A stretch of 33,887 nt of DNA, from assembly GCF_022711995.1 (NCBI RefSeq), contig NZ_JALAHI010000086.1, forward strand, positions 1-33,887. Reading direction: 5' to 3'. The notes beneath the pieces are model-generated. The model worked only from the letters and a program-made list of their open reading frames with translations, had not been told where the DNA came from and did not search any database. This DNA comes from Enterococcus sp. Its GTDB lineage: Bacteria > Bacillota > Bacilli > Lactobacillales > Enterococcaceae. The position numbers and the translations under genes are program-made. Each line of letters begins with the position of its first letter. Position 1 is the stretch's first letter. Shown here one piece after another: positions 11,839 through 13,864 of the stretch.

Positions 11839-12351
11839 ATGAATTTAAAAGACTATATTGCCAGCATTCCAGATTATCCGCAAGAAGGAATTGTCTTTCG
11901 CGATATTTCTCCATTGATGGCTGATGGCGAAGCGTATCGGTATGCCACACAACAAATCGTGGAGTACGCTCAGGAAAAAGGCATCGACATGGTTGTCGGT
12001 CCGGAAGCGCGCGGCTTTATCGTCGGTTGTCCAGTAGCCTATCAACTTGGAGTAGGTTTTGCTCCTGTTCGTAAAAAAGGAAAGTTGCCACGAAAAACGA
12101 TTGAAGCAACCTATGAAAAGGAATATGGCGTTGATATCTTAACCCTACATGAAGATGCCATCACTCCTGGTCAACGGGTATTGATCTGCGATGACCTGCT
12201 TGCTACTGGCGGTACGATCAAAGCGACTATTGAGCTTGTAGAAAAATTAGGCGGCGTCGTGGTTGGCTGCGCTTTTCTGATCGAGTTGATGGACCTTCAT
12301 GGCAGAGACAAAATCAAAGGCTATGAAATCAAAACACTGATGGAATATTGA
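11839..12351 (+). CDS. apt: Adenine phosphoribosyltransferase
   Basis: Salvages adenine to AMP using PRPP. The 170-aa length is typical. The PRPP-binding loop [13 protein letters not shown] is at 114-126, and the N-terminal region with [17 protein letters not shown] (10-26) is diagnostic of Apt. The start is ATG 11839, preceded by TAGGAGG at 11824-11830. That site overlaps the recJ stop (TAG 11825-11827), so the genes are cotranscribed and probably coupled. The strong hairpin at 12369-12412 ends the operon. Confidence 0.96.
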
Positions 12352-12368
12352 TCGAATAAACAGACTAA

Positions 12369-12412
12369 AAATAGAGGATAAAATCAACGACGGTTGATTT
12401 TATCCTCTATTT
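12369..12412. terminator. Bidirectional terminator after apt
   Basis: A 20-bp perfect inverted repeat (12369-12388 with 12393-12412) surrounds a GACG loop. T-rich tails lie on both sides. It can also end the convergent transcript of the SOS-box gene. Confidence 0.88.
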
Positions 12413-12440
12413 GTTTAGTAGTAGGAAAGAAGTGCCTCAT

Positions 12441-12516
12441 GGTCAACTTCAAGAAATTTTGATTTGTTTCTGAAGAAGTTGCCAACCTTTTTATGCCTTG
12501 CTCTGGCTTCGAGCAA
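12441..12516. repeat. Degenerate intergenic hairpin repeat
   Basis: GGTCAACTTC (12441-12450) pairs imperfectly with GAAGTTGCC (12475-12483). A second hairpin, TTGCTC / GAGCAA, lies at 12498-12516. The GAAGTTGCC motif resembles GGAAGTTGC and GGAAGTTAC in the intergenic DNA around 20815 and 20960, suggesting a decayed copy of the same repeat family. The second hairpin may help terminate the minus-strand gene. Confidence 0.4.
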
Positions 12517-12533
12517 TATTCTAAACCATCGAC

Positions 12534-12746
12534 CTATTGTTCATAATGATAAAAATCATGGTCGTGGTAATAACTTTGGTTTCTTTTACGTTCGGCTTGC
12601 CGGAATTTTTTTTCATCCCATAGCATGAACCACAGCATCATTAAAGGACAAAAAATCAGAACTGCACTGAGTACGCCAAAATAACCAATAATGATCCCGA
12701 TCAACAACACCCACAACATAAAACCAAATCGACGAACTGCTTTCAT
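12534..12746 (-). CDS. 70-aa membrane protein under LexA control (unknown)
   Basis: I do not recognise this protein. It starts with a short basic end (KAVRR), then has a continuous hydrophobic stretch at about 7-43 with a Gly-Tyr-Phe-Gly break, best read as a two-helix hairpin. A basic cytoplasmic segment (EKKFRQAERKR) follows, and the tail is rich in Tyr, His and Asp (YYHDHDFYHYEQ). The start is ATG 12746: AAGGAG (12760-12755) is 8 nt upstream, while the in-frame GTG at 12755 overlaps that site. Its promoter carries two LexA boxes, so it should be induced by DNA damage. It lies directly downstream of lexA but has its own promoter after the lexA terminator. Possible roles, by analogy with YneA, SosA or TisB, are division inhibition or membrane stress; none is shown. 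Confidence 0.78.
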   Translation of the reverse strand: MKAVRRFGFMLWVLLIGIIIGYFGVLSAVLIFCPLMMLWFMLWDEKKFRQAERKRNQSYYHDHDFYHYEQ

Positions 12747-12770
12747 TATTTTCACTCCTTATAAAAAATG

Positions 12771-12784
12771 CGAACTTATGTTTG
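12771..12784. promoter_or_regulatory. LexA (SOS) box at the start of transcription
   Basis: CGAACTTATGTTTG fits the Gram-positive LexA consensus CGAAC-N4-GTTYG in both half-sites. It covers the expected transcription start of the 70-aa membrane protein gene, just downstream of its -10. Confidence 0.85.
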
Positions 12785-12791
12785 TAAAATC

Positions 12792-12820
12792 ATTATACGA
12801 ATGTTTGTTCGGTTTGTAAA
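12792..12820 (-). promoter_or_regulatory. SOS promoter of the 70-aa membrane protein gene
   Basis: On the minus strand TTTACA (12820-12815), a 17-bp spacer and a perfect TATAAT (12797-12792) form a strong promoter. It starts right after the T tract of the lexA terminator. Confidence 0.85.
12798..12811. promoter_or_regulatory. LexA (SOS) box in the promoter spacer
   Basis: On the minus strand CGAACAAACATTCG matches CGAAC-RNRY-GTTYG with one change (A for G). It fills 14 of the 17 spacer bases between -35 and -10 and abuts the -10, so bound LexA would block RNA polymerase. Confidence 0.83.
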
Positions 12821-12825
12821 GAGGA

Positions 12826-12856
12826 AATAAAAAAATCTTCGGAAATTCGAAGATTT
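12826..12856 (-). terminator. Terminator of lexA
   Basis: Read on the minus strand, the stem AAATCTTCG / CGAAGATTT with a 6-nt loop is followed by a run of T residues. It separates lexA from the SOS promoter of the next gene. Confidence 0.87.
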
Positions 12857-12866
12857 AAGGAAATTA

Positions 12867-13487
12867 TTATAATAAGTGACGGTAGAGACCAACGACTAAT
12901 CCAAGAATCGTCACATCTGGTAAGATGATCGGTTCGAGGTAATCATTCTCCGGTTGCAAGCGGATGTGATCTTTTTCTTTGAAGAATCTCTTACAAGTTG
13001 CTTCATCTTCATCGGTCATTGCAATTACGATGTCGCCGTTTTGAGCGCTTTGCTGTTTGCGGACAATGACTTGGTCACCATCTAATATTCCGGCGTTGAT
13101 CATACTTTCACCGCGAATCGTCAACATGAATAAACTGCCGGTACTATTCGCTAAATCCGGCGGTATTGGGAAAAAATCAGAGGCATCTTCTACTGCCAAG
13201 ATTGGTTCGCCAGCTGTTACCACCCCTAGCATTGGGATTGAGTTAGGCTGAACATCGATTTTTTCTAATCCGGAGGAAGTCAATTCAATCGCTCTTGGTT
13301 TTGTTGGGTCGCGTAAAATCAAGCCTTTTTTTTCAAGTCTAGATAAATGTCCGTGGACGGTAGAAGTAGAGGATAGCTGAACGGCTTCGCCAATTTCGCG
13401 AACAGTCGGCGGATAGCCTTTTTCAGTGACTCGTGTATGAATAAACTTAAGAATCTCGATTTGACGATTTTCTGTTCGTTTTGCCAA
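12867..13487 (-). CDS. lexA: SOS-response repressor LexA
   Basis: Represses SOS genes and cleaves itself when stimulated by RecA filaments. The 206-aa product has an N-terminal winged helix (about 1-70). The cleavage bond is Ala92-Gly93 (VTAGEP). The Ser128 (RGESM) and Lys166 catalytic dyad match the spacing in B. subtilis LexA. The start is taken as TTG 13487, 8 nt after AAGAAGG, giving the usual MAKRTENRQ opening. A GTG nine bases upstream overlaps the ribosome binding site. A LexA box overlaps the -35, indicating autoregulation. It is divergent from ynzC and tkt, as in B. subtilis, but the yneA and yneB genes normally in between are missing. Confidence 0.96.
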
Positions 13488-13517
13488 AACTGACACCTTC
13501 TTTCATTTGATAACCCT

Positions 13518-13546
13518 AGTGTACCATAGGAGAAACGACAATTCAA
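13518..13546 (-). promoter_or_regulatory. Promoter of lexA
   Basis: On the minus strand TTGAAT (13546-13541), a 17-bp spacer and TACACT (13523-13518) lie about 30 nt before the lexA start. Confidence 0.65.
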
Positions 13547-13557
13547 ACAAATGTTCG
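13544..13557. promoter_or_regulatory. LexA box in the lexA-ynzC intergenic region
   Basis: CAAACAAATGTTCG matches the Gram-positive LexA box with one change in the left half-site. It overlaps the lexA -35 and should give autoregulation. It may also affect the divergent ynzC promoter. Confidence 0.83.
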
Positions 13558-13624
13558 CTTTTTGTCGCTATTGTTTTTTTGTCTAGTTTTGTATAAGATA
13601 AGTAAGTAAAAGGGAGGTGTCGAA

Positions 13625-13864
13625 ATGTTATCTAAAGAAAAATTAGCACGTATCAATGAGTTAGCCAAAAAGAAAAAAGAACAAGGGTTATCTGCTGATG
13701 AAACCATCGAACAGCAAAAGCTTCGTGAAGAGTATTTACACGCTTTTCGTGGCGGAATGCGACACCACATTGAAGGCATGAAAATCGTTGATCTGGAAGG
13801 CCAAGATGTCACACCGGAAAAATTAAAGGAAATCCAAAAGAAAAAAGGATTACATGGCAGATAA
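13625..13864 (+). CDS. ynzC: DUF896 protein, YnzC-like
   Basis: The 79-aa protein matches the DUF896 (YnzC) family, a small helical-hairpin protein of unknown function in Firmicutes. It has a Lys/Glu-rich N-terminal helical pair (about 4-40) and the conserved [19 protein letters not shown] region at about 35-53. In B. subtilis ynzC belongs to the LexA-regulated yneA-yneB-ynzC operon divergent from lexA. Here it is the first gene on that side and may share the LexA box at 13544-13557. GGGAGGTG at 13612-13619 precedes the ATG. It is followed by tkt, which has its own promoter. Confidence 0.88.

Follow-up and report, generated by a model that had tools for sequence, protein, structure and literature searches.

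What is the role of a gene for a 70-aa membrane protein that lies beside lexA, behind a promoter with two LexA boxes, in a 33,887-nt stretch of Enterococcus DNA (hereafter the window)? The coding sequence occupies 12534..12746 of the reverse strand, stop included, with its ATG at 12746, 70 codons running down to 12537 and the stop codon at 12534-12536; the call is supported by the frame read, its homologues and the dN/dS values given below. An AAGGAG ribosome-binding site was read in the sequence at 12755..12760 on the same strand. The lexA gene lies upstream at 12867..13496, likewise on the reverse strand (TIGR00498, E 2.1e-67, 226.7 bits), and divergent from it, on the forward strand at 13625..13864, lies a DUF896 gene (PF05979, E 8.8e-30) that we take to be the one named YnzC. 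The box scan placed lexA's own LexA-like box in the spacer between these two genes, at 13544..13557 on the reverse strand. On the 3' side of lexA, an intrinsic-terminator-like hairpin on the same strand (12833..12856; a 9-pair stem followed by a T run) separates the promoter of the 70-aa gene from lexA, and the gene should therefore be transcribed as a unit of its own; the terminator scan of the region returned 2 sites with a hairpin and T run, with 1.3 expected. Between the 70-aa gene and apt, an inverted repeat read in the sequence at 12372..12409, with no strand assigned, is probably a two-way terminator; it has a sub-threshold Rfam match on both strands and is not reported by the terminator scan. 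By its named matches, at 96% protein identity, the window lies near Enterococcus gallinarum.

The promoter scan found a -35 hexamer TTTACA at 12815..12820 and a -10 hexamer TATAAT at 12792..12797 on the reverse strand, which are separated by 17 nt and match 11 of 12 consensus positions. It ranks first among the 5 promoter-like sites of 12300-13650, a stretch in which shuffled sequences average 3.5. LexA box 1 (CGAACAAACATTCG; 12798..12811, reverse strand) is located in the promoter spacer, while box 2 (CAAACATAAGTTCG; 12771..12784, same strand) is located at the transcript start, spanning about +2 to +15 if transcription starts 7 nt past the -10 hexamer; each carries one mismatch across the ten core positions. 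Thus, the strong promoter with a LexA box in its spacer, as claimed in the original prediction, was recovered in the sequence, and the claim that the second box covers the start is roughly right, this box beginning a little downstream of the start itself.

Sites with at most one core mismatch number 3 in the window, namely boxes 1 and 2 and lexA's own box, against 0.54 expected, and none of 100 shuffles gave three; a looser pattern has 8 matches against 3.5, a count equalled by 2 of 100 shuffles. In the whole 3.49 Mb genome, 51 sites have at most one mismatch, fewer than the 131 of the reversed control pattern, so a single box carries little weight. The pair is a different matter: among the 50 of 51 genome sites listed, no other two sites are as close together: the next pair, which includes lexA's own box, is 746 bp apart, and the one after it 1,062 bp. 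Sites of the genome scan also occur at recA, dinB and uvrB frames, and one occurs near a YolD-like frame, all labelled by eye from the translations. Most genome sites are probably chance matches, since 16 of the 20 with surroundings read fall inside script-called frames.

We then compared the locus across the window's family, Enterococcaceae (f1). A genus-level search found the protein in 6 of 6 genomes, and homologues are present in 101 of 105 Enterococcaceae genomes (E <= 0.01; weakest best match 4.9e-8), all 105 of which carry lexA. Loci were read from 90 of the 101 matching genomes (90 loci; G009, G010, G014, G020, G024, G025, G043, G049, G053, G072 and G084 were left out), and a box pair was scored where both boxes agreed at 8 or more of 10 core positions, lay 25-36 bp apart and stood no more than 320 bp from the start. 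All 90 loci carry such a pair, with boxes at the same places as in the window, together with TTTAC/TATAMT hexamers, versus 0 of 915 control stretches of the same loci; the spacing is 27 bp in 87 loci, 29 bp in 2 and 28 bp in 1. The fetched flanks contain lexA in 67 of 90 loci, apt in 73 and either gene in 89, so the proposed search of other enterococci for the same gene beside lexA found it there in 67 cases. The other 23 loci have no lexA within 1.5 kb upstream, with the full stretch present in all of them, and both boxes are kept; LexA control therefore seems to be selected in its own right and not to be riding on lexA. Across the six genus genomes, dN/dS over the first 57 codons is 0.044-0.103 in 12 of 15 pairs (two of the remaining three have no amino-acid change and one has a saturated dS), and by this measure purifying selection evidently acts on the 70-aa frame. 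Conservation in related species, on which the original prediction had been staked, was thus found for the frame and for both boxes.

A few genomes of the family depart from this pattern. In G094, which the sequence search missed, this promoter and its boxes are kept in the same position, and behind them lies a diverged two-helix protein (L288:3138-3341) that has QWNERDFRK past its second helix and is without W-x3-WD; hence a promoter-anchored search can find such members. Presence of the gene could not be judged in G066, where a contig edge falls at both lexA and apt, or in G057, whose assembly has no apt match. In G095, lexA and apt are far apart and no such gene is near either, which looks like gene loss with lexA kept, a diverged copy elsewhere being possible. 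Conversely, at least three genomes of the family (G033, G034 and G038) have a second chromosomal copy away from lexA. Two of these copies (L172 in G033 and L173 in G038) carry paired boxes and adjoin a frame that looks transporter-like by eye, and the third (G034:C34:93584-93790) also has the promoter pattern upstream.

Beyond the family, a 33-member profile matched 102 of 395 Lactobacillales genomes. Apart from four weak matches (G194, G266, G307 and G374; E 5.4e-4 to 7.5e-4), which we treated as noise, the matches in the order are confined to Enterococcaceae and a second family (f8), probably Carnobacteriaceae, in which 28 of 29 sampled genomes match, the exception being G253. Three copies of the second family (G247, G265 and G283) hold stop codons or are split, and the lexA-type locus was read in the other 25 of the 28 genomes. 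Both boxes are present in 23 of these 25 loci at a spacing of 26-35 bp, and lexA is adjacent in 20; among the other five, L180 ends at a contig end. The two second-family copies short of one box are L195 and L194 (G187 and G207), of which L195 has one perfect palindrome in the spacer and L194 has a promoter that looks degraded. The apparent loss in G095, the lack of a match in G253 and the three broken copies indicate that the 70-aa gene is not indispensable. Together, the paired boxes of both families strongly support, at the level of sequence, the double LexA control that had been claimed for the gene; LexA binding and induction by DNA damage are predicted from the same sites.

The tandem LexA-box promoter is wider than the gene. 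Of 395 Lactobacillales genomes, 178 have the pattern, none of the matches shown being from a control, and at 45 loci from four further families (f2, f4, f6 and f9; L294-L338) it heads other genes. We therefore rejected the pattern as a marker of the 70-aa gene in general: it is a general strong SOS promoter, which marks this gene only in Enterococcaceae and the second family. As a side observation, 43 of the 45 loci (e.g. L299, L307, L319 and L325) have a 94-118 aa frame behind a near-identical tandem promoter, which may be another unnamed SOS protein; four of these 43 frames were scanned and gave no Pfam match at E <= 0.1. The remaining two loci have a frame resembling a Y-family polymerase by eye (L324) and no frame found (L313).

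In the protein itself, two hydrophobic runs, at residues 7-21 and about 28-43, flank a turn. Across 33 sequences, turn position 22 is polar in 94%, and the charge is net basic both ahead of the first run and behind the second. This pattern predicts a two-helix hairpin with both ends in the cytoplasm. Residues M1, R5, W39, W43 and D44 are invariant in the 33 members, and the C-terminal part consists of W-x3-WDE-K followed by a variable tail; W-x3-WD itself occurs in 90 of 90 Enterococcaceae proteins and in 20 of 25 frames of the second family. An AlphaFold model places helices at residues 2-20 and 22-69 with pTM 0.32 and a pLDDT of 66.9, for which reason its helix packing is not to be relied on. 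Foldseek with this model found no match in the PDB, the best PDB match by sequence is only SecD (E 0.33), and a plasmid search gave no match to the protein.

The most likely role, to which we give about an even chance, is that of a membrane-embedded brake on division during the SOS response. With box 1 occupied by LexA, RNA polymerase would be blocked at the promoter, and with box 2 occupied, initial transcription would be blocked; such double repression, judging from the promoter anatomy, would keep a potentially harmful product very low. In the SOS pathway, RecA triggers LexA cleavage after DNA damage. With LexA cleaved, the strong promoter of the 70-aa gene would fire, and the hairpin may then use its helices and its W-x3-WD collar to dock onto an integral membrane component of the septal machinery, delaying division until the DNA is repaired. 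The protein would thereby do for enterococci what YneA does for Bacillus or SosA for Staphylococcus. Several points count against the division brake: the predicted hairpin has nothing outside, unlike the single-helix inhibitors characterised so far; the conserved features name no target; W-x3-WD is looser in the second family and missing from the G094 protein; the structural model is weak and has no PDB counterpart; and the gene is dispensable.

An envelope accessory, a phage-exclusion factor and a depolarising peptide are weaker alternatives. The first would be a damage-induced accessory of envelope stress, for example a modulator of a membrane protease, the translocon or a cell-wall enzyme, and not a division inhibitor; we regard it as unlikely. 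Weak matches to general membrane-protein profiles speak for it, such as Pfam MFS in 13 of the 33 members (best E 1.1e-5), although the window protein reaches only 16.7 bits with the MFS profile, whose cut-off is 33.4. The Pfam scans also returned seven other families in one member each, and NCBIfam scans returned AFWIR in 2 of 33 and UgtL, PRK09109 and PRK14094 in one each; all these matches are weak or scattered, with no specific Pfam or NCBIfam family for the protein. The predicted architecture also resembles that of many small proteins that regulate membrane enzymes, which consist of a hairpin with a short cytoplasmic tail. However, no neighbour or fusion that we saw points to such a partner, and the linkage to lexA and the double box would be unusual for such a role.

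The phage relatives, which are new relative to the original prediction, bear on both the division brake and the second alternative. PHROG 1270, a family with function unassigned, matches the window protein at E 3.5e-7 and 30 of the 33 members at E <= 0.01; the claim that the protein has no recognised family thus holds for Pfam and NCBIfam but not for PHROGs. Run against 398 genomes of the class, the PHROG 1270 profile matched 8, each from Enterococcaceae or the second family, and it matched 0 of 14 control genomes. With the protein of phage SEsuP-1 (QYI86644.1) as query, homologues were found in 11 phage records (phiFL1A-C, phiFL2A/B, phiFL3A/B and SEsuP-1), among which is phiFL1A gp11; of these phages, the window protein as query reaches only SEsuP-1, and a second-family prophage copy as query found nothing in the phage collection. 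The gene lies past regulator and antirepressor-type genes in phiFL1A and SEsuP-1, and in phiFL1A it lies ahead of RecE/RecT and replication genes. In 12 prophage-type loci, read out of more such profile matches, the copy is on the strand opposite an upstream block read as integrase or repressor; of 10 neighbours scanned with Pfam, 8, from 6 of the 7 loci sampled, have integrase, repressor-type or Rha domains. A LexA box pair upstream is absent from the 12 prophage copies, SEsuP-1 and phiFL1A gp11, and at L164 and L168 a lone 8-of-10 site lies over 200 bp from the phage-type copy. Given phage copies without a box pair, DNA damage probably turns on this kind of protein through two different repressors.

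In a tree of 60 columns and 74 rows (excluding L164, L165, L174, L200 and L201), in which bootstrap is unsettled and long branches are joined, the Enterococcus phages group with enterococcal rows and most second-family prophages with second-family rows. Such a grouping would be expected had phages acquired the gene from their hosts on more than one occasion, although tree support is weak and the direction undecidable. L174 was rejected as a prophage copy on account of its match at only E 3.7e-4. The records OR847331.1 and OR846632.1, deposited as Listeria and Enterococcus phages, were also discarded as phage evidence, as they are bacterial chromosomal DNA with apt in both and lexA and the DUF896 gene in one.

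On the strength of the PHROG 1270 match in 30 of 33 members, the 11 phage records and the 12 prophage-type loci, the protein might instead face phages: it would be co-induced with prophages and alter the membrane so that superinfecting phages are kept out or the escape of prophages is limited, and the phage copies would serve the same purpose. Phage exclusion genes usually sit on the lysogenic strand, whereas the copies here sit among early genes opposite the repressor block. Moreover, the PADLOC defence library matches only 1 of 33 members (E 0.0065), and the host gene is near-universal in the family, not patchy. We regard a phage-facing role as unlikely too.

In the third alternative, the product would act like TisB, as an SOS peptide that forms pores or depolarises the membrane, with a lower proton motive force and a shift towards persistence as the outcome. 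Type I SOS toxins, TisB among them, are likewise short hydrophobic SOS products, and the small size, the hydrophobicity, the two boxes and the glycine-spaced first helix (G17 and G21 in the window protein) would suit such a peptide. Nevertheless, the leader with the first codons folds at z 0.65, with 159 of 200 shuffles folding at least equally, no sigma-70-like site was found on the opposite strand at the leader, and Rfam gave no match at gathering score; with no leader structure, opposite-strand promoter or RNA family, nothing points to an antisense lock. A protein partner would also be suggested by the conserved charged WDEK collar, and we hold a TisB-like action to be quite improbable. Finally, that the gene is not real or the boxes are chance matches has a negligible probability and is refuted by conservation, for although single boxes are no commoner than chance (51 versus 131 for the reversed pattern), the paired boxes occur at 90 of 90 loci versus 0 of 915 controls and dN/dS is 0.044-0.103.

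Returning to the division brake, the early-gene copies in temperate phages that share these hosts fit a product that halts host division or growth. We found no open-access paper on the 70-aa gene or on an enterococcal SOS division inhibitor, subscription papers being outside the scope of the search. The accessible part of a LexA regulon reconstruction in lactic acid bacteria covers Lactobacillaceae and Streptococcaceae (PMC3616900), and that of the SosA paper does not mention enterococci (PMC6851548). The 70-aa gene is a good candidate for the missing post-damage division brake of enterococci. More tentatively, and with a probability well short of even, W-x3-WD hairpins might form a new SOS checkpoint family that replaces YneA/SosA in nearly all Enterococcaceae and the sister family, and that phages took up repeatedly as an early lytic gene, host and phage sharing one brake under two repressors. 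A near-universal and apparently tightly controlled small protein offers a single gene to delete and test, and its use by phages as well would link checkpoint control in the host to the lytic programme.

How does the protein compare with known systems? In B. subtilis, lexA and the DUF896 gene diverge and yneA sits between them, unlike the 70-aa gene, which is downstream of lexA. At 66 Enterococcaceae loci with both genes divergent, the gap between lexA and the DUF896 gene measures 122-328 bp (median 135); in 63 of these loci it does not exceed 183 bp, in the others it is 264, 284 and 328 bp, and the frames of at least 40 codons in these three wider gaps do not look like membrane proteins by eye. 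As the usual place of yneA and sosA offers no room, a double-box membrane protein lies across lexA and phages carry early copies, the 70-aa gene is the best candidate for the role. According to the accessible text of PMC6851548, Gram-positive SOS division inhibitors are small membrane proteins that diverge widely in sequence and commonly have their genes next to lexA, and the characterised ones have a single membrane helix and, in several cases, LysM. Several are suggested to act on FtsW via the membrane, on the basis of low-confidence models, in the available part of PMC13396833.

YneA of Bacillus and Listeria and ChiZ of Mycobacterium are likewise small membrane proteins, SOS-regulated and commonly encoded beside lexA, as far as the accessible text describes them (PMC6851548). 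YneA has one transmembrane helix and an extracellular LysM in the available part of PMC13396833, in contrast to the two predicted helices of the 70-aa protein, for which LysM gave no match with the window protein (E <= 1) and none was listed for the 33 members (E <= 0.01). With no LysM domain and a different predicted topology, the 70-aa protein is not YneA. SosA of Staphylococcus is likewise an SOS membrane protein, of 77 aa, encoded beside lexA in a coccus and without LysM; the accessible text of PMC6851548 gives it one predicted helix (10-30) and an extracellular C-terminus that is needed for activity and probably also for turnover involving CtpA. Compared by description only, the C-terminus of the 70-aa protein instead follows a second helix and is predicted to be cytoplasmic; hydropathy and charge suggest two helices with both ends inside, unlike SosA, the model being of low confidence. 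The PHROG 1270 phage proteins and the phage homologues phiFL1A gp11 and SEsuP-1 QYI86644.1 have a similar length and the same two-helix pattern ending in WDE; the 12 prophage copies, SEsuP-1 and phiFL1A gp11 differ in having no LexA box pair upstream and in their early-region position. The 70-aa protein is a plausible candidate member of the functional class of SOS membrane peptides, similar to YneA and SosA in its predicted regulation and different from both in predicted topology.
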